22,862 bases of DNA from Priapulus caudatus (Eukaryota; Priapulida; Priapulimorpha; Priapulimorphida; Priapulidae): assembly GCF_000485595.1 (NCBI RefSeq), contig NW_014577711.1, positions 7,151-30,012 of the forward strand, written 5' to 3'. This document shows positions 2,500 through 18,966 of this stretch, piece by piece. Both the position numbers and the translations under genes were made by a program. The stretch's first letter is position 1. Every line of letters begins with the position of its first letter. The notes under the pieces are model-generated. The model saw only the letters and a list, made by a program, of their open reading frames with translations. It had not been told where the DNA came from and made no database searches.

Positions 2500-3198
2500 A
2501 ACGTGCAAAATGTATCGGCAGAATATGCCAAATTGTGTGGCCACATGGTGGCAGTCCCTCAGATCTGATTGCATCTATTCAATGCCGTTTAAGTCGCTAT
2601 CCAGATGGTATCGCGAAAATCATTGTCTTCGACAAGTACCAAGATGTCTCAGCCAAGGATCATGAGAGTATGCGGCGGGCTGGTGAAGTTATCATCGACT
2701 ATATACTCTCCATTACCAGTTATCTGCCAAAAAGAGCTGCAATCATGAAGAGCAAGAACAACAAGCAGAGGCTGGCAAGCGTGTTGTGTACCTTCAATGT
2801 AGGAGAAAATGCAACAATGGCTACTCGGGACGATGGTGTATTTGGTCACGATGAAGCCGACATTACCATGATCTCCTATGTCCTTATGGCTGCTAACTAT
2901 GGACAAGGCGTAATCTGTGTGCTTAGTGATGTACTGGGTGTATTGGGCACCACCAAGGCATGTGGCTGTCACAAAGAACATCTTTCATGCACGTCATACT
3001 GTATCTGCTCTGATAAAGCGAGCTGCTGCAATCCATACACTAAGAGACGAGATGCTCAGGCTGAAGATGAGAATTGTTGAATATAAGGATGTTGAGGGAG
3101 AGGATTTTGTGGAGGGTATAGATCATGAGGGTGAAGGCCATGTGGATGTTGAGAATAGTCTTTCTGAATCTGATTACCTGGATGATGAGTGGGAGTAA
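2500..3198 (+). pseudogene. Truncated, internally deleted copy of the large CXC/PIN-like family
   Basis: An open frame from 2535 reads 181 codons to 3080. It belongs to the same multi-copy animal family as the gene at 12830-17427. It covers only the C-terminal part: the WPHGGSPSDL and VFDKYQDVSAKDHE segments, an HDEAD motif (2846-2860, equivalent to HEEAD in relatives), then VLSD at about 2918-2929, where the DTDV nuclease-like motif should follow. Instead the frame jumps within about 20 bases to the C-terminal Cys-rich motif ACGCHKEHLSCTSYCIC (from about 2957). I infer a deletion of roughly 200-250 codons. A frameshift near 3070 separates the Cys motif from an acidic tail that stays open in the next frame and ends EWE-TAA at 3196-3198. 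The N-terminal half and terminal inverted repeats were not found here. I judge it a dead fragment; a domesticated short gene is a less likely alternative. Confidence 0.65.
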
Positions 3199-4459: not shown

Positions 4460-4724
4460 GTACCATGCCTCAATCGCATTGATCGCTCAGTTCTAGAGAT
4501 CTATTGGTGTCATGAAATCACTCGCCGAGCTTGACATATATTGCAGTGGAGCTTGCCAGTCATACCCCTGTGCAGTAATGAATTTTCAAACTCTTGCAAG
4601 TATTTTACTTACGAATTGTAGATTTGTAAAATTTTGTAGTGTAGGCTGTAGATTATATGGGTAACAATTAGCTGCAGTGTTTTGCATATGGATAAAATGT
4701 TCATTAGCGATTATTCTTTTTCAG

Positions 4725-4842
4725 CCGGTTGTCAACAACAATTTAGGGTCTGTTAACAATGTGGTGTCAGTAAAAAAGACGGACTTTGAGGTTTTTGAGG
4801 CGTTGGCAGTGGACAGTAGCAAAGATGGTCATGGGTTAGCTG
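4725..4842 (+). CDS. PRKAB: AMPK beta subunit, exon between the glycogen-binding and C-terminal domains
   Basis: The encoded peptide starts PVVNNNLGSVNNVVSVKKTD and continues FEVFEALAVDSSKDGHGLA. It is the direct counterpart of the family's LGTVNN(I/L)I.VKK.DFEVFDAL segment, which closes the CBM48 fold and begins the linker. The acceptor is TTATTCTTTTTCAG|CCG and the donor is GCTG|GTGAGT. The 118 bases give 39 codons plus one base, so the exon ends in phase 1. This fits the next exon, which begins with two bases completing a Gly codon. No stop or indel is seen. Confidence 0.93.
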
Positions 4843-5156
4843 GTGAGTCGACCCTGTTATTGCTGTTGTAGAAATTTTTTAAGTCCAATCAACACACACT
4901 CGTCTAGGTGAGCTGCAGTACTAAAGTACCTGTAGTCACATCACACGGAAATTCACTTATCTTATGAGCGAGTAAGTATTCATGATCAGCAACATTATCG
5001 CAAGTGGCCATGAACTTTTTCTTTACTTCTGCAGGTATTAGTGTACATCGGAAATTGTGCTCTATTCATCCTCTGCTATGATGCTATGCTGTTTCGATTT
5101 TGTTACTTGCCATTGTTTTGCTGCAATGTATATATGTGTTCCACCTTATGCAGCAG

Positions 5157-5293
5157 GGGTGGTGTCAGGGTCACCACCAGGTGAGTACTCACAGGAGATC
5201 CCAGTGAAGACAGCGCACGAGAGGTCATCCGGTCCACCCATCCTCCCCCCACATCTCCTGCAGGTTATCCTCAATAAGGACACACCAGTCTCG
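5157..5293 (+). CDS. PRKAB: AMPK beta subunit, exon with the alpha/gamma-binding segment
   Basis: Two bases complete the split Gly codon, then 45 codons follow and the exon ends in phase 0. The peptide VVSGSPPGEYSQEIPV... leads into PPILPPHLLQVILNKDTPVS. PPILPPHLLQVILNKDT is nearly invariant in AMPK beta subunits and starts the C-terminal domain that holds the kinase alpha subunit and the regulatory gamma subunit together. The acceptor is GCAGCAG|GG and the donor is TCTCG|GTGAGT. The linker before PPILPP is divergent, as is usual. The downstream intron is long (5294-10443) and filled with repeats and transposons. Confidence 0.94.
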
Positions 5294-5394
5294 GTGAGTA
5301 CCATAGTCAATGTGTGCATGTGAGTGGTCCTACCTTCAAGTGAGCTGGTGATTTGAGTGATATATCACTACATCTACTTTCACTGCATGCATGT

Positions 5395-5660
5395 TGTTGT
5401 TGCTGTTGTAGTTGTTGCAGTGGTGGTCGTGGTCATGGTGGTGGTGCAAGTGGCTGTGGAGGCGGCGGTGGTTGTTGTTGTTCTTTTTCTTTTTCTTGTT
5501 CTTCTCCTACTTCTTCTTTTCTTTCTCTTGCATTTGCTTTTGCTCTTGCTCTTGTTCTTCTCGTTGTTGTTGTTGTTGTTGTTGTTGTTCTTCTTCTTCT
5601 TTTTCTTCTCCTTGTGCCTGTTGTTGTTGTTGTTGTTGTTGTTGTTGGTGTTGGTGTTGG

Positions 5661-5691
<31 letters not shown>

Positions 5692-5740
5692 GGTGCTGCT
5701 GCTGCTGCTGCTGCTGTTAAATGTTATTGTTGTTGCTGTT
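5395..5740. repeat. GTT/CTT trinucleotide-rich simple-sequence tract
   Basis: The plus strand is dominated by GTT, CTT and later TGC/GCT units, and is nearly free of A from about 5470 to 5717. It lies in the intron just after the exon ending at 5293. All three plus frames and one minus frame are open across it and would encode runs of Val, Leu, Cys or Asn/Thr. This is the usual artefact of a trinucleotide repeat, so no protein is called. Confidence 0.9.
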
Positions 5741-6075
5741 TTAATGGCTACTAGAGTAAACCACCCCACGTAATACTGCCAATCTCACTTATCACCTGGA
5801 AAATGCCAATGTACAGATCGCTTGTATCTATTTGTACGTAATTTAGCCTTGTAATTCCGCCCTTCTTTAACCGCCAACTGGCAACATTATGGCTATGTAC
5901 AATCCTATATAAATGCATTGAAAATACACTTGTTATACCGCCATCGAGGGTGTTGGTTGGTATTGGTTGTTCAGTTTCTATGGTAACATACACACAGCAC
6001 ATCCACGCAAGTCCTATGTGGTAGCATTAGGCTATACATGTAGTACAGTGTATTGCATCACATTCACTTGCTAGT
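5741..6075. other. Intronic stretch before the Tigger remnant
   Basis: No gene seen. The 5' terminal inverted repeat of the Tigger-like element should lie in or near this stretch, but I could not identify it. Confidence 0.4.
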
Positions 6076-6675
6076 ATGGTGCCTACGAAGCGACCTCGTG
6101 TTGCCTTGCAGGCTCTTGAAAAACGTGAAATTTGCAAATTTTCTAAAAAATATCCCCTGAAGTCACAGCAAGCAGTTGCCGATAATTTCACTGCTCTGTG
6201 GGGTAGAGAAATAAAAAGGCGAACTGTCGGAGATATCCTACAGGCATCTGACAATTGGGATGCTGATCTGTCTAAATCAATGCTCAGCTCAAAAAGATTG
6301 AGACCTGCTAAACACGCGGACATGGAAAAAGCCCTATTCTTGTGGTTCACGTAAACCAGGGCAAAAAATATCACCGTTACGCAGGATATTTTAAGGAAGA
6401 AAGCAATGTATTTTGGAGAACAACTTAAGATTTGTGATAATTTTACTTATTCTAGTGGTTGGATCAGTTGATTTAAGAACCGTTTTGGAATATCTAGTTG
6501 TAAAATTTGCAGTGAGAGTGCTGTTGTGGGCGCAGATGTGATTAAAACGGGAATAGAGAAAGCTAAAGACGTGATTAAAAACTATTCTTCACAGAACGTC
6601 TTTAATTTAACATGGATGAAACTGTGTTATATTTTGCAATGATACCAGACAGATCACTGACGACATACGGAAGGG
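6076..6675 (+). pseudogene. Tigger/pogo-type (Tc1-mariner) transposase remnant
   Basis: The ATG at 6076 opens a frame starting MVPTKRPRVALQALEKREIC. It then shows the helix-turn-helix segment ..QQAVADNFTALWGREIKRRTV and the AKHADMEKALFLWFT motif. This is the CENP-B N-terminal plus Tc5-type DNA-binding arrangement of Tigger/pogo transposases. The same frame continues past a TAA (6352-6354, where relatives have Gln) through DILRKKAMYFGEQL and SSGWIS, a TGA (6469-6471, where relatives have Arg) and FKNRFGIS, to NYSSQNVFNL. After a one-base frameshift near 6610 comes MDETVLYFAMIPDRSLTT, which contains the first catalytic Asp (the DET motif). The match stops at about 6675, where gypsy sequence begins. 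The rest of the DDE domain is absent. Both stops fit C-to-T decay, so the copy is dead. Confidence 0.85.
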
Positions 6676-7483
6676 ACAAAAACAATACAAAACTGGCAGA
6701 TTGTCTCTCGAGACAACCTAATCAGAGAAAGCGTACTACAATTGACCTCGACGTCAAAGTATTACACGTGCAGTACTCGACGTCAAAGCTTCAGCAACTG
6801 CGAGAGGAGTCTAACAAAGACGCCATTCTCTGCGCGTTGTGAGACGTCATCATAGCCAGATGGCCAGATGAGCGACGCGGTCTCCCAACCCCGCTCACAG
6901 TATATTGGTCCTTCCGAGATGAACTGAGTGTCGAGAACGGACTAGTCACGAAAAGTCAAAGAGTGATGATACCAGAGACCATGCAAGCCGATATCCTAGA
7001 GCAGATACACACTGGTCACCAGGGCGTTACCAAGTGGCAACTTAGGGCAAAATCTTGTGTGTTCTGGACAAATATTAACCAGGATATCGACAAGTTGGTG
7101 GCACAATGCTCAGCGTGCCAAAACGCACAAACCGAGCCAACCACCAGAACCGCTTCAACCACATGAGACAAATTTGTTCCATTTTGACGGTGCAGAGTAT
7201 CTGGTACTGGCAGATTACTACACAAAATTTCCCGTAGTGAGGAAAATAGTGGGAGCATGCACAACAGGTGCAGTTGTCCAACTAGTAACATGGACGACCT
7301 GAGCATATCATGTCCGATAACGGCCCACAATTCGGCTCAGCTGAATTTAGGCAGTTTCTACAGTAATGGCAGATAGATGGCGTGACTAGTAGCCCCAGGT
7401 ACCCGAAATTAAATGGATTCATTTAACAAAACGTGCGCACAGTCAAAGAAATCCTGAAGAAAGCTAAGGAAACCAGAGAGACA
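6675..7483 (+). pseudogene. Gypsy pol fragment: RNase H tail and integrase (5' piece)
   Basis: The frame from about 6675 reads LADCLSRQP, the usual end of the gypsy RNase H region, and crosses a TGA at 6840-6842. It reopens in the same frame to the H2C2 zinc-binding module: HTGHQGVTKWQLRAKSCVFW, then VAQCSACQ (about 7008-7125). A frameshift and probable short deletion near 7150 lead to LFHFDGAEYLVLADYYTKFP in another frame. The residue before LFHFDG is Asn, where the first catalytic Asp is expected. A further shift near 7290 leads to PEHIMSDNGPQFGSAEF, which holds the second catalytic Asp (SDNG). It then passes a TAA after FLQ and reads PRYPKLNGFI-TAA-QNVRTVKEIL. The third catalytic residue (Glu) is replaced by that stop. 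The reading breaks at 7483. Confidence 0.85.
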
Positions 7484-7596
7484 TGATACAAGATTGCGTG
7501 GCACAGCTTTGCTGTTGATCCTGAGCGCTGCGCGCGGATGAGACGCGCAGTTCCGCGGGATATGCGCACGCGACCGCGGAGATGTTCAAGTATGAA

Positions 7597-7663
7597 GCGC
7601 TGTCCGCAGTGGAGACGTGCGCCAAATTCGAGGCCCGGCGCACGTCTCCACAGCGGTCAGCGG
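7597..7663. repeat. GC-rich inverted repeat (hairpin)
   Basis: Arms 7597-7623 and 7637-7663 match at about 24 of 27 positions. The core GTGGAGACGTGCGCC is perfectly paired with GGCGCACGTCTCCAC, and the loop is 13 bases. The hairpin sits in a CpG-rich block unlike the AT-rich surroundings. Confidence 0.8.
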
Positions 7664-7944
7664 ATGGTCTGTAGTTTTAGAAGATGACAATGATTATATG
7701 GACGATATTCTAGAAATTGGAAATTGTAAAACAGTAAAAAAATCGCTGTTCCTACGACGTGTAACAGTCGGAGAGCCTGGTCGGTTTAGCCCCAGATTAG
7801 CTGAATCAAAAAGATGAGAATTTAATGTGAACAAAACAAATATAATGGTTATATAAAATTCACAAACAAAGAAAGGATCGAGGGGATTAATAGGCAACCA
7901 AGTAATCAAAAAATGCACCAAATATTCATACCTAGGGGATTTAA

Positions 7945-7978
7945 CACAGACTAACGGATACGTATTCGTTAGTCTGTG
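7945..7978. repeat. 34-bp near-perfect palindrome
   Basis: Half-sites CACAGACTAACGGATAC and GTATTCGTTAGTCTGTG pair at 16 of 17 positions with no loop. GGATTTAA occurs directly on each side (7937-7944 and 7978-7985). Confidence 0.8.
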
Positions 7979-8718
7979 GATTTAATTAATGTTATAGGAG
8001 GTTATAACGCTATGATAAGAGTCGGAACTGAAAAATGTAGGTTAAGGGAAATAATTATGGGCAAAAGAGCAAAATTGTGAAAATCATACTATAGAAGCAA
8101 GAAAAATTATGCGAATACACAGTTTTACCTTTCTTCCTAAATAACAGTGAAACATGGACTAACTTAACTAAGGAAGAAGTAAACATGTTGGAGGATATCC
8201 AAAATGATCCAAGAGATGGCGCTGTGGCATGTAAACATTGGCTCCCGAAGCGAGTTTTTTTGCCGAAATGTTTTCTCTCTAAATTACTGAATGACGCAGT
8301 GAAAATGCGGATAATTTTCCTCCTAGATGCGAAATGCATCAGCCGGGCATTTCATTATTTACAAAAAGTAAATAGGCCGGCGAAAAACGGTAGGTACAGG
8401 AACCGTGGTAACGTCGGTCACGCCCCATTCATGTCCATCAACGAATAAGGCGGGGCTTATTGTGCTTACAGATAGGCGAAATTAGAACAAAAGGACTTAG
8501 CACTGTGCGCAAAACAGCGTGTTATATTCGTATTTGTGCCAAACTCTATCGTATGAAACCGTTCTAGCCTAGCAGAATGCCCTAGTTCCTGAGATCGGCG
8601 ATTCCATGCTCGAATAGTATTAAACCTGAAAGGGATAATACAAGGGTGCGGCGTGGACTGTGATTGGAAGACACAAAGTGTCAATCCTCGGCATCATGGC
8701 CGCATCACGTCAAGGACA

Positions 8719-9303
8719 GATCCTGACCGAGCCCTACTGTGTGTTAGGACAACACCCATTGACAGTCAGTTGCCAAGCCCGGCAGAACTGATGTTTAACC
8801 GAAAAGTGGTTAGTAACCTCCCGGTCAGAACGTCGCCCAGCTATCAACAGTTGTACGATAGGGATAGGGTAGAGGAACGCCTCCAAGAGAGACAGGGTAC
8901 CCAAAAACACTATCACAACCAAGCTGGAGCCAGAGAGTTACCTCCCCTTATGACGGGAGAGACTGTCACGGTACAGGATCAGCAAACTGGACTGTGGTTC
9001 CCTGCAAAGGTAATTCAAAAGTGCCAAGAACCACGGTCTTATATGGTGGAAACACCACACGGAAGAATCCTTAGGCATAATAGACAACAATTACGTAGTG
9101 TGCCCAAAGCAGGCAAGCAAGTCCACTTTGAGGACAATCCAGTCGTTGTGCCGCAGACTACACAGGCGCGGCCGCATCATAACACGACTGAAAGACCTGT
9201 GACCACCAAAACAGGAGTGGCTGTTAGTGGTAGAGCCAACAGTGACACGTATAGAACACGTTCAGGGCGGCATATTAGAACGCCGAAACGTTATTTAGAC
9301 ACC
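8719..9303 (+). pseudogene. Gypsy pol fragment: integrase C-terminal part (3' piece)
   Basis: An open frame covers this region, and its gypsy-like part starts DPDRALLCVRTTPIDSQLPS, then PAELMFNRKV (the segment after the integrase core). It continues with a basic stretch and GETVTVQDQQTGLWFPAKVI, which resembles the GPY/F-like or chromo-shadow-like post-core module, and SYMVETPHGRILRHNRQQLR, ending with TPKRYLDT-TAA at 9304-9306. This 3' piece is free of stops, unlike the 5' piece. The upstream ATG of the open frame at 8653 lies in the inserted DNA and is not the native start. Confidence 0.85.
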
Positions 9304-9520: not shown

Positions 9521-9534
9521 CGACGAACGTTGTG

Positions 9535-9758
9535 TAAAAATGTTGAACATTATTCGCACAGTGCAAGGATATTTGCACAAGAATCATGACATTATGTTAT
9601 AAGTTTTCAGTTCTTAGTCAGTTATATGGATACAAACCGCAGCAAGTAAAAATGTTGAACATTATTCGCACAGTGCAAGGATATTTGCACAAGAATCATG
9701 ACATTATGTTATAAGTTTTCAGTTCTCAGTCAGTTATATGGATACAAACCGCAGCAAG
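9535..9758 (+). repeat. 112-bp tandem duplication
   Basis: Copies 9535-9646 and 9647-9758 are identical except for one base (TTCTTAG against TTCTCAG). A third copy may begin at about 9760 (TTAAAAAT) but breaks off at once. The repeat lies between the pol stop and the 3' LTR. Confidence 0.95.
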
Positions 9759-10813: not shown

Positions 10814-10818
10814 CTCAT
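10814..10818. repeat. Target-site duplication, left (CTCAT)
   Basis: The 5-mer immediately before the left terminus; identical to 18962-18966. Confidence 0.7.
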
Positions 10819-11331
10819 CTATGGAAAGCCATCCTCTTCAAAAATCATTTTCAAACATTTCAAATACACAATTTTAAATCAATTTTAAACATTTCAAATT
10901 AATTAATAAAAATGAAAATTACTTTATATTGTTTGAGAAATTTAAATTCAACATTTAAAATCAATTCACAGAATAACAAATCAATTTATTAACTTGCAAA
11001 TTAATTCACAACTTTCCAAAATAATTGACTGATATACAAATTCCTTCACATCATTGTAAAAATTCATTTTCTAAACGTACAATTTATTTTCAAAACAACA
11101 AACCAATTTACTAACTTGCAATTTAATTGAGAACATGTTACATAAACTCACAAATGTTCAAATCTTGCTTCGTCACCCTAGCAATTGAAATTATAAGTTT
11201 GAAATTAATTTACAGAATAACGAATCAGTTGACTAAGTTTGAAATTAATTTATTACTTTTAACATTAATCACCAGAAATGCGAATCTAACTGTTGGTTTC
11301 AGAATTATTAGGTAACAAATGACAAATGTAT

Positions 11332-11381
11332 AGCTTAAATTACAAATTAATCATACAGCTTAAATTACAAATTAATCATAC
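11332..11381 (+). repeat. 25-bp tandem duplication in the left TIR
   Basis: AGCTTAAATTACAAATTAAT plus CATAC occurs twice back to back. The right arm has only one equivalent unit, so this duplication arose in the left arm after insertion, or the right copy was lost. Confidence 0.85.
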
Positions 11382-11534
11382 AGCTTTCAAAACATATAAA
11401 TGTTTACAATCAAAGAGCTCATTTAACAATCAATTTATGCAACTTCCAATCTATTCAAGACCTCTGAAATTACTTTACTAACGTTTACAATTGGCCGCCC
11501 ACTCTGTTGTTTCCAGTCCGTGTGCAAATCTATT

Positions 11535-12034
11535 CAGGAAACTTTGAATCAATTCATAGGACTTGCAATCTATTCACTACACTTTCCGAACCAGCCAACT
11601 ACAAACCAAACTCCAAATCAATTAATTCTAAAAGTGCCCGGATGCTTTACAGGTGATTATAGGCGAAATAGAGTAGTAAATACATTTCGTGTTTATTTAC
11701 CTTTTTTTTTTATTGAGACGTTACAAGTGCCTGTGCCGGCGAACGCTTTTGCCAACCAGCAGAGCTATGTTTACACACGTGACCTGGACGTGACGTCACG
11801 CTGAACGCTCCTTGGGCAACACTGTCACTACACTGTAGTGTACAGCTGTAAACAAACACATCTTTCCCGCAGGGTGGTAAAAATCGGATCCTCCAATACT
11901 ATAGCGTATCCATCCGAGCTGAAGCATCTGGGCACTTTTAGAATTAATTGATTTGGAGTTTGGTTTGTAGTTGGCTGGTTCGGAAAGTGTAGTGAATAGA
12001 TTGCAAGTCCTATGAATTGATTCGAAGTTTCCTG
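11535..12034. mobile_element. 500-bp foldback (MITE-like) element nested in the left TIR
   Basis: It begins CAGGAAACTTTGAATCAATT and ends with the reverse complement of that sequence, ..AAGTTTCCTG. Arms of about 118 bp (11535-11652 and 11917-12034) are almost identical over the outer 105 bp, with one substitution. The right TIR has the uninterrupted counterpart: CTATT|AGTC on the left corresponds to GACT|AATAG at about 18260-18268. This shows directly that the 500 bp is an insertion. No target-site duplication is visible. The 265-bp centre is non-coding and comparatively CpG-rich. Confidence 0.8.
11791..11798. promoter_or_regulatory. Full CRE palindrome TGACGTCA in the foldback centre
   Basis: An exact match to the palindromic cAMP-response element recognised by CREB/ATF bZIP proteins. 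It is followed by a perfect 7-bp-arm inverted repeat CACTACA-C-TGTAGTG at 11826-11840. Function is not shown by the sequence; a single 8-mer can occur by chance. Confidence 0.3.
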
Positions 12035-12258
12035 AGTCCAGGCTAGGCGTAATGGTCATAATAGTGTATGCTTGTTTTTCGACATATATAATGTTTTTTT
12101 GCTGTTTCTGGTCAATGTTAGGGTGCTGATGCCAAATCCGATGTATGCCAGCTCGTAAGTGTTGAGCATTTTTTTCTAGAGCACAAAATACACCCGAAAA
12201 TACACTTTTTTGTAAATAACGGCGATAATATTGTATTTAGACCCCAAGTATGTATGGA

Positions 12259-12829
12259 AATTAAACATTCGTTTTCTACCACGGGCATGCACAGGCGCAC
12301 GATTTATTGATCGTCTGCTGTGCAGCTCCTACTACTGGCAGCGGTTGGCAGCAAGCCACGGGTAGACGGGTATCAGGCCTCACGCTCTGCTAGACAATGT
12401 ACACGCTCTGCGACAAACAGTTCGGCCGCGAACCAGTCTAGCCAGAGGTGACCTTTCAGTGCACCCTGGGTTGCACGCTGGGTTAATGGGCTAGACACTG
12501 CATGACAGGTATCGTTTTAAGCACGAACACCGTAATAAAGATTTGATGTTTTGCCTTGCACTGACAATTGTGTATTTTGTAATTACAAATGTGAATTATA
12601 AGGCAGAAATGTGTGAAATGATGTCATGTAACTATGTGTGAGTACTATATGACCAATTCTAACACGACGAGTCGGGCTACTAGTACTAGCACTCTGGTTG
12701 TATGCGACCGGACCAAGCATTTACCCGACTAGGTCGGTCGAACGTGGGTTAGTGTCGAACCCTGGCGAAATGTAGTTGTAGATGTAGTTGTAGTTTAGTC
12801 GTAGAATTTTGTTCTATTTCAGATAAAGA
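12259..12829 (+). other. 5' leader region of the transposon gene
   Basis: No open reading frame of note. It should hold the promoter and 5' UTR of the large gene. A good polypyrimidine tract and acceptor TTTTGTTCTATTTCAG ends at 12822, only seven bases before the ATG at 12830. This suggests a 5'-UTR intron, but I could not choose its donor. A small GGGTT-AACCC hairpin lies near 12747-12763. Confidence 0.45.
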
Positions 12830-15800
12830 ATGGAGAAGAATTGTATAATATGTGGCTCTAGTGCACCTAAATTGACACATTCATCCAGGATAACTGCACT
12901 ACGCCAAGCAAGCCATCAACGTGGCGATGACCTGGCCAGGAGACTTGCGGATGACGCTACCACATTCTTGTGTCACAAGAACTGCATAAGTACATACTGC
13001 TCCCCACACCACATCCAAAGACTCCTAAAGAAGAGAAAAAATGAGACACCAGCTGACTCGAGCTCGAGTTCCAAGCACTTGCGAAGCAATACTGAATGCA
13101 GTTTCAGTTTCCTGGAACACTGCCTCTTCTGTGGAGAGGAATGCCAAGTGGAGCGACCTCACAAGAATCCAAATAGATAGAGAGAGGCCTATCTTTGCAG
13201 AACTGCTAACAGAGAAGGACAAATCTCATTCAAAGAGTCAGTTCTTAGCCATGCAATACAGAGAAATGATAACTGGGGAAATGAGGTTGCATTCAGAGCA
13301 AATTCAGCTCTGAGTGACTTGCATGCAGCTGACGCTCGTTATCATAAAGAGTGCATGTTGAAGTTTGTCACAAACCGTCCTACTGCATTTACTCTGACTG
13401 ATCATGACACTGCTCTAGAAAAACTCATAAAGGAGCTTCACTCAGATCCAACAAGAACTTGGAACAGTGTTGAATTGCATAAACTATACGAGGAGTTGGG
13501 TGGAAAACAACTGTCACGGCGTTCACTCATCAACTACCTTGGCAAGACCCTTCATCCAGACCTACTTGTTCTTTATTCACCAAGCGTGGCATCTATCCTT
13601 CTGTTCAGAAGCAATGCATCAGCTAACCTTCGGATCGTGGATGATGTCGAAGATGACTGCAATCAAGCCATCTCAAGCCTTGGTAAGAAGATAAAGTCTG
13701 AGTGCCTTGCACAGAAGCCAGATACCAGCACGTATGTAACGCACATATCACTTGACTCAGTCACAGGTACACCTAAAACCTTTGTACATTTTATTTAATT
13801 CCTTTTCAGCAATAGTATGGTGTTTTACAATGAAGAGTGTTTCCATTTTATTATCATATACATGTTATGTGAATATTCTTTTATCGCAGGTGAATGCAGT
13901 CAAACTCTTCTGGCACTCGTGGCAGAAATATCTCCCAAACTGCAGTTTACATTGCCAGCAGCAATGATTGGTAATATTGTTCTAAGCGCTGTTTGTGATC
14001 AAGTCACCAGCTTACAAGTGGCACTCAGTACCCTGTTCAATCAACAGAGAAGTGTAATTGACCAGCTGCACAGTTTTGGAGTAACTTCCAGTAACTAAGG
14101 CGTTTTCGAATTTCGGCAGCCGCAGCTATGGCAAAAGATGATCAAGGTATAGCACAGTTTGACAGTAAGAATGGCCTTGTCCAAGTGGTTGCGGACAATT
14201 TTGACACGCAAATCTCATCCCAAAACGGCCAAAAGTCAACCCATGGCTTGGCTATGATAATCACCCAAGCTGGTCAGCCAAAGTCAGAACCAGTAGATAG
14301 TGAGACAGTCTCTCAAACAATCCAACGTTTGAAGTGGGAAGAGACAAAGGCTTCCAAACTGTCTCTGGTAGATATTAACGTTCAACGTTTTCGTGGCAGA
14401 AAGCAATCTGACATGCCAGAAGAGTATGCTAGAAGAGTTGTACCCACGCTTGCTTTTCTTGCCAGAATGCAATTGTCAAATCAGAGAGCAGCAGCAGAAG
14501 ATTTTGTGTTTCTGAAAGCTGTTACCGGGGAAGATCCGTGTCCAGAATATGGTGGGTTTAACACGAAACAGGCCAGGGAAAGAGGCCAGCAGCCAGAGAA
14601 GAAGACCAGTCTGCTGTACACTCCGTTTCTAGATATGACTACCTCAGAACCAGACAATGAAAACGGCAATGGTTCAAGCACAGGATATCACTACACTGAC
14701 TGGCCAGGAATGGACAATTTTTACCTGTGACCAGCAATTATACAAGGTGGTGGTCAACATAGTATGGTATGAACCAGCTCTCTTCCCAAGGTTTGTGCCA
14801 AGGTTAGGAGGTATGCACTGTTTAATGAGTTTTGTGGGGGCAGCAGGGTCCTTGATGGCTGGCAGCGGCCTTGAAGACATTCTCAAGTCAACATTTGCTG
14901 GGGTGCCAAAGCTTCTCTCTGGCAAGAAGTTTCCAGAAAACATCCGAGCGCTTAGAATTGTGCTGGAAGAACTACTATGGCCATTACTGAACAAGGACGA
15001 GGAATCTAACATTGACAACCTCATGACATACTTGGAAACTATCAGTAGACGCAGTAGGACAACGAAACTGTGGGTTGACTGCCTGATAAAGCCTGTCCTG
15101 ATCATCATGACCTTTGCACGTGCTGAAAGAGAAGGGCAATTGGCCACTTTCATATTGTCTGCCAGTTGAAAAATCTACCGTATTTCTTCTCATCAGACTG
15201 TTAATTACGCAACGTTTATGGACTGTACTATCTGCGCTGCTCATGCAGACGGCTTTCAATCCGAATGTCGCTGGAAAAGTTTCTAGCGGGAGAACATGTC
15301 ATAGCATCACCAATGATGTCTTCTGGAAGCGGTCGTGGTCTGACCTCTTATCGAAAACTAAGAACATGCGCTACGGCAAAGGGCCTCTGGTATCCATTGG
15401 CTCCAACCCTGAATGAAACTACCTCGCCATCCTGGGCTCTATCACTTAGCATGTTTGGACAGTTAGGAGGGATTCTGGGAAGTAGCTACAGGTCAGAACA
15501 TCAGACAGTGGTCCAGCCTGCGATAAGAGGATCGACGACCCGCGTGAAAGGCAGATGCTGCTGACAGACTGAAGATATCGGAAGCACTGTGCACATGCCA
15601 TTGATGTGTATTATAGTGACACACACCAATGGAAGTCTTTGTCACATATATTTTCCTGGTCCAGGTTGTGATGACAAAGGTGTCAATGCTGATGATTCCG
15701 CGTGAATAATTCAGCACTGATCAGTGTTGGAGTATGAAAGGCAGTGGCCAACGGGATTTCACAAGAAGATATGTAAAAGGGTCTAAACCAATGTTACGCC

Positions 15801-17427
15801 GTACAAAAGTCAGAAGATGAGTGGTGGGGTCCCTGAGAACCGTGAAGCACTGAACTTTATCTATGCTCGAGTCATTGGAATCATGCTTCTTCAGGGAGAC
15901 CATTTTCTACACAACCTCTCTTCTCCTATGATACTAGCTCCCATTTCCATCGCTCGTTTAATGCTCATGGTGACCATGAGAGACAACCTCACAAGTCTGG
16001 TGCTGAGTCCAAGATCAAAGTAGAATGTAGTCAAATGAAAACAGGGCGCCTTGCAAGTGTTATTCTAGGCTGGTTGTGGCAGTTCTGTGGACAGTTCCTG
16101 GCCTGCCACACCTGCTCAGGTGTCAACTTTGTTAATGCTGCTTGGCTAGCATAAGCGTCATGTGAATGGAACACGTTTCTTGCATGATGTTTGACAGATA
16201 CTATGGAGACCAGCGAAAAGTCCATGCGTCGCGACAACAACGTGCCAAACGGTGTCAGTCGTATGTACAAAACTTACAACCTAAGATTGGCCCCACTACA
16301 AAGCAAACTGTCACCCTTGAATGTCAGCAGCTAAGCAAAGAGCAGATGCATTCGAATGATCGTTAGATGAACTGATTTGTCTGAGCCGTTCCGAGAGGCA
16401 AGACACATCATTGGTGACGGGCAGAATGCTCGTCCCATTGACGTAGGTACTCTGAGTAGCCAGCTGCACAACCATGGACACCATGAGGACAGCTGACAGT
16501 CCTCATTGCTTATCAATGCAATAAATGAAGCTGTGTGCAGCCATTCATTCTATCAAAGTTGTGTCCTGACGACACAGATGTTCTTGTGATCTTGGCTCAC
16601 CATCTACACATCTGCGCAAACAAAACCGACCATGGCCAAGAGCAGAGTCAAAACTTCTCATGGAGTCATGCACTCAGAAATCCCGCTAATTGATTGATGT
16701 CAAATGAAGTTCGTGAAAAAGCATGCACAAGTTATCGGCCCAACCTACCTGGCAGCTCAAGCACTAACTGGTTGGCGATTCCGTATCCTCTTTGCTAGAA
16801 TTGGCAGGCAACAGTCCTGAAGCAATTGGAAGCATTTGCTGACACATCAAGCTAGAATCTATCTACTTAGCTGACTGAAATCGTCGACTCTTGTCTGGCG
16901 ATATGTAGGACTGTTGTACCGACAGAACATCACGAATCTCTGAGAACATATTACCGATGCGAGCAGCCTTCTTTCAATTCGAAAGCTAGCTGCAAAAGAC
17001 ATTGTACGCACCAAAAACTCAGCAGCTTACCACAAATACAAATGGCGAGCTTTCAGACCACACTGACCCGTGCCCACTATCAGACAGTTCTGCTGTGAAG
17101 TCTCTACTGGCATGAACCGTCCCACTCCACCTCTAGATCCTCACAGTTGGATGGGAGAAGAAGTTCTAACCTGCTCCCAGGCTGTATAAATGTGACGAAC
17201 AGTTATTGTGCCTGATGAGGTATTACATCTCATCAGCTGTGGCTGCAATATCTGGTGCAAATCAGCAATTGTAACTGTAGAAGTTCAGTCTACGCGTGTA
17301 CGGATGTTCTGCACCTGCACGAGGTGAAGGAAACTGCCGAAAATTGGTGAGGAGGGTATCCACAGAAGAACTTAAGCGGTGGATGACGAAGATTAAAGAT
17401 AATGAAATGAAGATGTTTACTGAATAA
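12830..17427 (+). pseudogene. Large zinc-finger / PIN-like / CXC multi-copy family protein, putative transposase, disrupted
   Basis: This is the only gene of the 8.1-kb element, about 1,490 codons when all pieces are counted. In order: a paired-Cys motif CIICG with CHKNC (12842-12990); a second, CLFCGEEC with DARYHKEC (about 13120-13360); GLVQVVADNFDTQISSQNG (about 14170-14230); GGFNTKQARE; FTCDQQLYKVVV (about 14720-14750); PRLGGMHCLMSFVGA; KKFPENIRALR; IYARVIGIML (about 15859); VFDRYYGDQ; a HED..AD remnant (16482-16497) and DDTDVLVIL (about 16568-16594), which resembles PIN/XPG nuclease acidic motifs; then EVLHLISCGC and a Cys-rich CXC-like end (about 17215-17330) and an acidic tail. The Asp of ADNFD and of CDQQ are candidate catalytic residues by inference only. 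Breaks: TAG at 13178-13180 in frame (relatives have Trp), shifts near 14093, 14657 and 15140, then very many to the end. Function in the family is unknown. Confidence 0.8.
13767..13889 (+). other. Intron of the transposon gene (123 bp)
   Basis: The donor GTCACAG|GTACAC and acceptor TTTTATCGCAG|GTGAAT join the frames across a split Gly codon, so that ..DSVTG continues as ECSQTLLALVAEISPK, as in other family members. Without splicing the upstream frame would end at 13796. The intact splice sites suggest this copy is not a processed retrocopy. Confidence 0.75.
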
Positions 17428-17430
17428 TTG

Positions 17431-17436
17431 AATAAA
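17431..17436 (+). terminator. AATAAA signal of the transposon gene
   Basis: A canonical polyadenylation hexamer a few bases after the end of the acidic tail (candidate stops at 17421-17427). It is well placed to end the transcript of the large gene. Confidence 0.5.
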
Positions 17437-18040
17437 GGCATTCTTGTTGTACAGTGAGACCGTTGTTCCTGTGTGACATGACAAGTGATCGAACCATTTG
17501 TCCATTATTTAATTTCTTTGTTCAGATATATTAAGAATATGTCTGAAAATAAGATGTCAAATTACCCCTTAACATCTTTTGGCCATGAGGGCTATTCTTG
17601 GTTGTCCATACAATGTCATTCTGGAAATATAATAGATAAAGAATTGTTCCTCATCTACTATTAAGTAATGATCATTTTAAACTTGAATTAACAAGTTTGT
17701 TACGCGTAATTGAAACTGGCAATTACATAATCACTACAACTATGTCTGCCATATAGGTTTTTGGCTGCCATTTTTACAATTGTTTTTATTCAAAAATGCT
17801 CAACCTGCTATTAACTGGATACATCAGATTTGGAACCAGCTGGTTTGAATTGTGGGAGAAATTGTTAAAACATGTTATACTATGTCGCCTGACATAGCCC
17901 AGAACTAAGCCAGACGGTTGGGATTGCCAGCGATCGGCGAAAAGAAAATATCGCCGTATCATGATCTCAAAACTACACCAAGATAGAGTCAAAGGGTTGT
18001 ACCAAAGTCGCAAATAACACAAGTATAATACTATACATGT
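17437..18040. other. Non-coding stretch between the gene and the right TIR
   Basis: No gene or repeat recognised. It belongs to the interior of the element by position. Confidence 0.5.
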
Positions 18041-18961
18041 TCCACTAACATACTTAGGAGTCAAAATACAATATAATCGCCGTTATTTACAAAAAAATGT
18101 ATTTCTGGTGCCATTTTGATTTTTGTGCCTCTGGAAAAAACATGCTCACACTTACGAGCTGCATAACATCGCGATTTGAATCAGCAATAAAAACATTGAC
18201 AGGAAACCAAAAAAAAACGTTATATATTTCAAAAACAAGCACCTGAGCACTCCTAAGCCGACTAATAGTTGCACACGACCGGACACAACAAAGTGGGCGG
18301 CATAATTGTAAAAAACGTTCAGTAAGTGATTTCCAGAGGTCTTGACATAGATTGAGAGTTGCATAAACTTTGGATTTGTTAAATGAGCTGTCTTTTGATT
18401 GTAAACATTTATATATGTTTGAAAGCTGATATGATTACCTTTGAATAATTAAGCTATACCGTTTGTCGTTTGTTACCTATAATAATCTGAACCAACAGTT
18501 AGATTCGCATTTCTGTGATTAATGTAAACGTAATGATTAATTTCAAACTTAGTGAGCGTGATTCGTTTCCTGTAAAATTCAATTTCAATTTTAAGGTGAT
18601 GCAAGCGGACGGAGCAAGATTGACGATTTGTTGAGTTATGTAACATGTTTCTTATAATTGCAAGTTATAAATAGTTGCTTGTTGTTTTGAAAATAAATTG
18701 TATCGTTTAGAAAATGAATTTATAAAATGATGTGAAGGGAATTTGTAACTAATCAAGCAATTATGCTTCTGGAAAGTTTGAATTAATTCAAGTTAATTAC
18801 ATATTTGTATTCTGTGAATTGATTTTAAATTTTGAATTTAAATTTCTCGAACAATATAAAGTAATTTGTCTTTATTAATTAATTGAAAAATGTTTTAAAT
18901 TGACTTAAAATGTGTATTTGAAATGTTTTTGAAAATGATTTTGAAGGGATGACTTCCATAG
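18041..18961. repeat. Right long terminal inverted repeat
   Basis: The reverse-complement partner of 10819 to about 12258, without the 500-bp foldback. It ends GGGATGACTTCCATAG at 18961. Similarity is high in blocks of 15-40 bases but broken by frequent one- to few-base indels. That indicates either age or consensus error. Confidence 0.85.
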
Positions 18962-18966
18962 CTCAT
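18962..18966. repeat. Target-site duplication, right (CTCAT)
   Basis: The 5-mer immediately after the right terminus; identical to 10814-10818. Confidence 0.7.

Follow-up and report, generated by a model that had tools for sequence, protein, structure and literature searches.

DNA transposons of the AcademX group encode a nuclease of the XPG type that is fused to the transposase. To our knowledge, no such nuclease is fused to the transposases of hAT or P elements, two superfamilies that generate 8-bp target duplications, and the duplications made by Transib/RAG span 5 bp. Within Academ, duplications of 3-4 bp in AcademX and of 9-10 bp in AcademH have been tied to the nuclease and the helicase that these groups respectively encode (PMC10045372); the layout of the AcademX protein is not described in the accessible parts of PMC10294476, PMC10799480, PMC4455052, PMC8290104, and PMC9587614. 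Here, we analyzed a 22,862-nt stretch of the Priapulus caudatus genome (NW_014577711.1, 7,151 to 30,012; assembly GCF_000485595.1), hereafter the window, on which all element coordinates are based, and describe an element that is very likely a cut-and-paste DNA transposon, present as a gene-bearing copy and moving by the mechanism outlined below.

Inverted arms and target duplication

The assignment of the element (Table 1) to DNA transposons with terminal inverted repeats (TIRs), proposed in an earlier note made from the DNA letters of the window, is supported by our analysis. Including the hexamers CTATGG and CCATAG at the extremities, the outer arms (10819-11534 and 18264-18961) are identical in 619 of 658 ungapped columns and align with a score of 748, compared with a maximum of 31 among 60 random inverted comparisons. 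The arms continue inward, where 12069-12259 pairs with 18040-18241, and the net arm length of ~0.92 kb agrees with the ~0.93 kb given in the note. The left outer arm shows an internal periodicity (0.427 at lag 20; 99th percentile of shuffles, 0.378), possibly an array of protein-binding sites; in the right outer arm, no periodicity exceeded the shuffles (best lag 22, 0.339; 99th percentile, 0.349). With CTATGG/CCATAG taken as the ends, 5 bp (CTCAT) was the sole fit among flank duplications of 2 to 12 bp.

The ends of the family are defined by its other copies. A search of the genome (385,217,808 bases in 2952 contigs) with the outer arm yielded at least 48 match rows (40 of 130 candidates scored); the window itself is among them, some copies are represented by several fragments, and the right arm of the window is missing. 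We fetched 33 arm-bearing stretches, 20 of 1.9-10 kb and 13 of 1.8-6 kb, representing a part of the 48 rows, and paired each left end with the nearest downstream inverted end, which resulted in 13 pairs, the window included. The 6-mers immediately outside TATGG...CCATA are identical in six pairs (L009, GTTCGA; L010, TGCATG; L011, CGTACG; L021, CACACG; L024, CAACGG; L029, GTTTTC) and match at five positions in four more (L014, L015, L027, and L034); the agreement is weaker in L017 (4/6), L013 (3/6), and the window (0/6). Among 156 mismatched controls, none reached five matching positions, and the best value, 4/6, was found in eight. The base preceding TATGG is variable across 25 left ends, including that of the window (G in 9, A in 7, C in 5, and T in 4), so the leading C of the CTATGG terminus proposed in the note, present as it is at the window ends, lies outside the family terminus and is a target base. 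The termini of the family are thus TATGG...CCATA, and insertion is accompanied by a 6-bp target duplication.

This agreement among paired copies led us to reject a 5-bp duplication as a family trait, which the earlier note had derived from CTCAT. The pentamer itself stands on both flanks of the window copy, where it requires a one-base slip relative to the family termini; among 560 mismatched end pairs, 1 shows this very slip and 9 show any slip of either 0 or 1. CTCAT may be the product of a genuine 5-bp duplication or of a 6-mer that was damaged or misread, or it may mark a recombinant origin of the left end.

The element gene was not detected by blastn in any of the 33 fetched stretches, many of which are shorter than the element: those under 8.1 kb could show only a part of the gene, and L036 (1.8 kb) none of it. 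Nor did blastn detect, in these stretches, the inner arms or the intervening DNA that leads from them to the gene. Arms without a gene, which the earlier note had named as evidence that would speak against its proposal, therefore do occur, and they count against the gene-bearing transposon described here; but 12 of these loci pair as inverted ends, and in 10 of the 12 the adjacent 6-mers agree at five or six positions, so that the gene-less loci behave like non-autonomous transposons. We consider it improbable that the arms constitute an independent, gene-less transposon family, with the gene caught between two copies or captured by one of them. Such a history would account for the lack of the gene in all fetched loci, for the presence at the left end of the window element of an extra segment that is found in 31 of these 33 loci, and for the mismatch of the window flanks in the 6-bp register, but it fits poorly with the direct junction of outer and inner arms on the right, with inner arms that mirror each other and are missing from every gene-less locus fetched, and with CTCAT standing on both flanks at the same slip, as in only 1 of 560 controls.

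The extra segment, 502 bp in length, interrupts the left arm, and its terminal inverted repeats differ by two mismatches. In gene-less copies, it comes after the outer arm, often in flipped orientation; for instance, L011 (1878 bp) consists of an arm, the segment, and an inverted arm. The window element shows the segment next to a gene-specific inner arm solely on its left side. A chance nested insertion was rejected as its origin because the segment recurs in 31 of the 33 arm-bearing loci. For the left end of the window element, we considered both insertion of the segment and loss of a palindrome between an adjoining gene-less copy and the element.

The encoded protein and its predicted activities

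Between the arms lies a single large gene, as the note had described, which is matched piecewise by tblastn with P0002, P0008, and P0027 from 12827 to 17324. A search with protein pieces from the window itself identified 132 homologues at E<=0.001 (7995 candidates scored; at least 120 listed). Among the matches listed, the longest have ~1450-1540 aa; P0001 (810 aa) comes closest, with 57% identity across 99% of its scored portion; the named hosts are Nematostella vectensis and Holothuria leucospilota; and one match is named as a Bacteroidota metagenome-assembled genome, probably a eukaryotic contamination. A profile search produced 24 matches, among them P0128, a full-length member of a sister lineage with 27% identity and the same order of parts. 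The DDE region of P0128 has 447 homologues (5950 candidates); among the 120 listed, those with names are mostly from insects, and several carry the name Tesmin/TSO1-like CXC. In line with the note, these searches show a protein family that occurs widely and mostly lacks a name.

The central part of the protein, which the earlier note did not recognize as such, is predicted to adopt an RNase H-like DDE transposase fold. In the structural model, the order of strands and helices fits the RNase H-like core, with a helical insertion preceding the candidate last acid, and D413, D416, D591, and E796 are conserved in 39 of 39 homologues. A Foldseek search with this model gave no match at E<=0.001 in the PDB or among viral structures, and of two sequence searches against the PDB, one returned a single chance-level row and the other none. 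The acidic motifs that the note had likened to PIN/XPG fall, as it supposed, in a predicted XPG/FEN-type nuclease: the model of the C-terminal domain displays a 5'-nuclease (PIN-like) fold with an acidic active site. This part shares its predicted fold and conserved acidic residues with FEN1, EXO1, and XPG, and is here located within a transposase-like protein.

Among profiles, PF20231 (DUF6589; cut-off 27) matched sister-lineage protein P0164 with a score of 31.8 over the DDE region, whereas the window lineage remained below the cut-off (P0085 and P0013, 25.8 and 25.1); among the matches listed, two members of the window lineage carry PF20231 in their precomputed annotation. NCBIfam gave only scores far below the cut-off, Rfam gave no match at gathering thresholds, and the sequence patterns used confirmed no relatives in the viral and genome contig collections. 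The one literature collection searched contained no paper naming DUF6589 and none joining XPG, 'DNA transposons', and TIRs.

In the window copy, a frame-tolerant alignment to P0002 includes 46 frameshifts, 41 of them beyond 15.2 kb, and 8 in-frame stops, counts that come from one alignment and vary with the penalties. Frameshifts are absent from 12800-13999 and then number 1, 1, 3, 7, 4, 9, 10, 6, and 5 per 400-bp bin, that is, 1 across 12.8-14.4 kb versus 4-10 per 400 bp at 15.2-17.2 kb. The same alignment recovers D413, D416, D591, and E723 in the transposase part and D1072, D1165, D1189, D1191, and D1251 in the nuclease part; E796 is replaced by K, D1029 by L, and E1163 by D, and K1261 falls inside a frameshift. 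The window arms contain 59 gaps versus 39 mismatches. The corresponding values for other copies are 5/24 (L009), 3/19 (L010), 9/28 (L011), 12/18 (L029), 60/42 (L021), and 20/15 (L024), the latter two indicating that gap-rich stretches are not peculiar to the window. We doubt that the frameshifts represent plain ancient decay, as they become so much denser toward the right while many catalytic codons and all Cys codons of the CXC tail persist, though genuine decay may still be the cause; given that its right half is rich in gaps and frameshifts, we call the copy neither dead nor alive.

Under the proposed mechanism, a single protein of ~1450 residues would bind the long TIRs through its zinc-finger-like and/or CXC parts, and its RNase H-like DDE domain, a fold predicted from the model, would cut and join DNA, with insertion staggered by 6 bp, as seen in the gene-less copies with the same outer arms. 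A likely role for the fused nuclease of the FEN1/XPG type is to trim flaps or branched intermediates, whether at the ends of the element or at the donor break, and the gene-less outer-arm copies could be mobilized in trans. A widespread, mostly unnamed animal protein family would thereby be recognized as a probable transposase whose active site can be tested, and DUF6589 would gain a likely function as a DDE transposase core. For one family, the termini and the length of the target duplication are now pinned down. A transposase with its own flap-type nuclease also raises the question of whether repair-type processing is built into transposition.

Table 1. Features of the Priapulus caudatus element (window positions)
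Feature	Position	Strand	Remarks
Whole element	10820..18960	+	8141 bp; family-type termini TATGG...CCATA
Left flank, CTCAT	10814..10818	.	5-mer also on right; 6-bp register mismatched here
Right flank, CTCAT	18962..18966	.	
Left outer arm (TIR)	10820..11534	+	~20-bp internal periodicity; at least 48 genome match rows
Right outer arm (TIR)	18264..18960	-	Gap-rich versus left arm and versus other copies
Left inner arm	12069..12259	+	In 0/33 fetched loci
Right inner arm	18040..18241	-	In 0/33 fetched loci
Extra segment	11534..12035	+	114-bp inverted-repeat ends (11534-11647 / 11922-12035); common to 31/33 fetched loci
Putative transposase gene, broken as sequenced	~12830..17390	+	Probable intron ~13766-13888 (splice-like ends and protein alignment)
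N-terminal Cys/His (zinc-finger-like) region	12842..13387	+	
Predicted DDE (RNase H-like) region	14095..15400	+	Conserved Asp codons 14194-14196, 14203-14205, 14729-14731; E796 position not recovered in frame
Predicted FEN1/XPG-like nuclease region	16070..16820	+	5/7 acidic positions recovered as D (16193, 16495, 16571, 16577, 16777)
CXC tail	17238..17337	+	9/9 Cys codons recovered

Relationship to Academ and other transposons

In the structural comparison, the predicted DDE part, with its helical insertion, ranked closest to the transposases of hAT (Hermes) and of the P element, but the 6-bp duplication distinguishes the window family from both superfamilies; nor does the family share the duplication length of Transib/RAG. 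From AcademH, it differs in duplicating 6 rather than 9-10 bp (PMC10045372), and no helicase was found in Pfam scans of the homologues (batches of 6, 9, 4, and 7, several of them partial). Like AcademX, for which PMC10045372 records a nuclease, it appears to combine a DDE transposase with an accessory nuclease, and may well work in the way of XPG-bearing AcademX elements, but its 6-bp duplication misses the 3-4 bp recorded there for AcademX, a group compared here by description only.

A further element lies in the same genome, at positions 4559-7753 of stretch L018. Its inverted arms (4559-5324 and 7061-7753) are identical in 627 of 657 columns, end in TAGTCAGG...CCTGACTA, and enclose a coding fragment resembling the nuclease and CXC parts, with 25% identity to P0002. 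ACA on both sides is a possible 3-bp duplication, and direct repeats of at least 5 bp are absent within 4 bases of the ends. This element provides independent support for nuclease/CXC genes being situated between long inverted repeats.

The chances appear about even that the window element is a plain AcademX element, belonging to an unreported family of the described nuclease-encoding Academ lineage. The apparent union of DDE and XPG-type nuclease parts within one protein argues for this placement, as does ACA around the diverged L018 element, a single copy in which a 3-bp match has a chance of 1 in 64, whereas a duplication of 6 bp, neither 3 nor 4, argues against it. The 6-bp duplication and the TATGG ends, together with a deep sister lineage that retains the four-part order at 27% identity, would instead be expected of a superfamily-level lineage apart from Academ, consisting of DDE-XPG-CXC transposons with approximately kilobase-long arms and 6-bp duplications; we regard this separation as rather unlikely, given that the same pair of domains characterizes AcademX. 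Academ itself, moreover, varies in duplication length (PMC10045372). As a tentative synthesis, the gene-bearing transposon of the window could belong to a broad animal assemblage that combines DDE, a FEN1/XPG-type nuclease, and a CXC tail, with DUF6589 as the catalytic core, in which the window family would form a separate branch with arms of ~0.9-1.1 kb, a 6-bp stagger, and a nuclease engaged in end processing.

Neighboring sequences in the window

Elsewhere in the window, a truncated second nuclease/CXC gene fragment (2526-3041), diverged and of the same assemblage, is 25.6% identical to P0002 over 2526-2945 (E 5e-6) and includes a CXC part at 2949-3041; it is not flanked by inverted arms of at least 30 nt. 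Retrotransposon remains occupy 6843-9303, with an integrase H2C2 zinc-binding domain at 6843-7163 (E 1.4e-13) and the rest Gypsy-like by eye. A Tc-type transposase helix-turn-helix at 6031-6351 is a weak match below the cut-off (E 0.0015), and a 112-bp unit is tandemly duplicated, with one mismatch, at 9534-9757.

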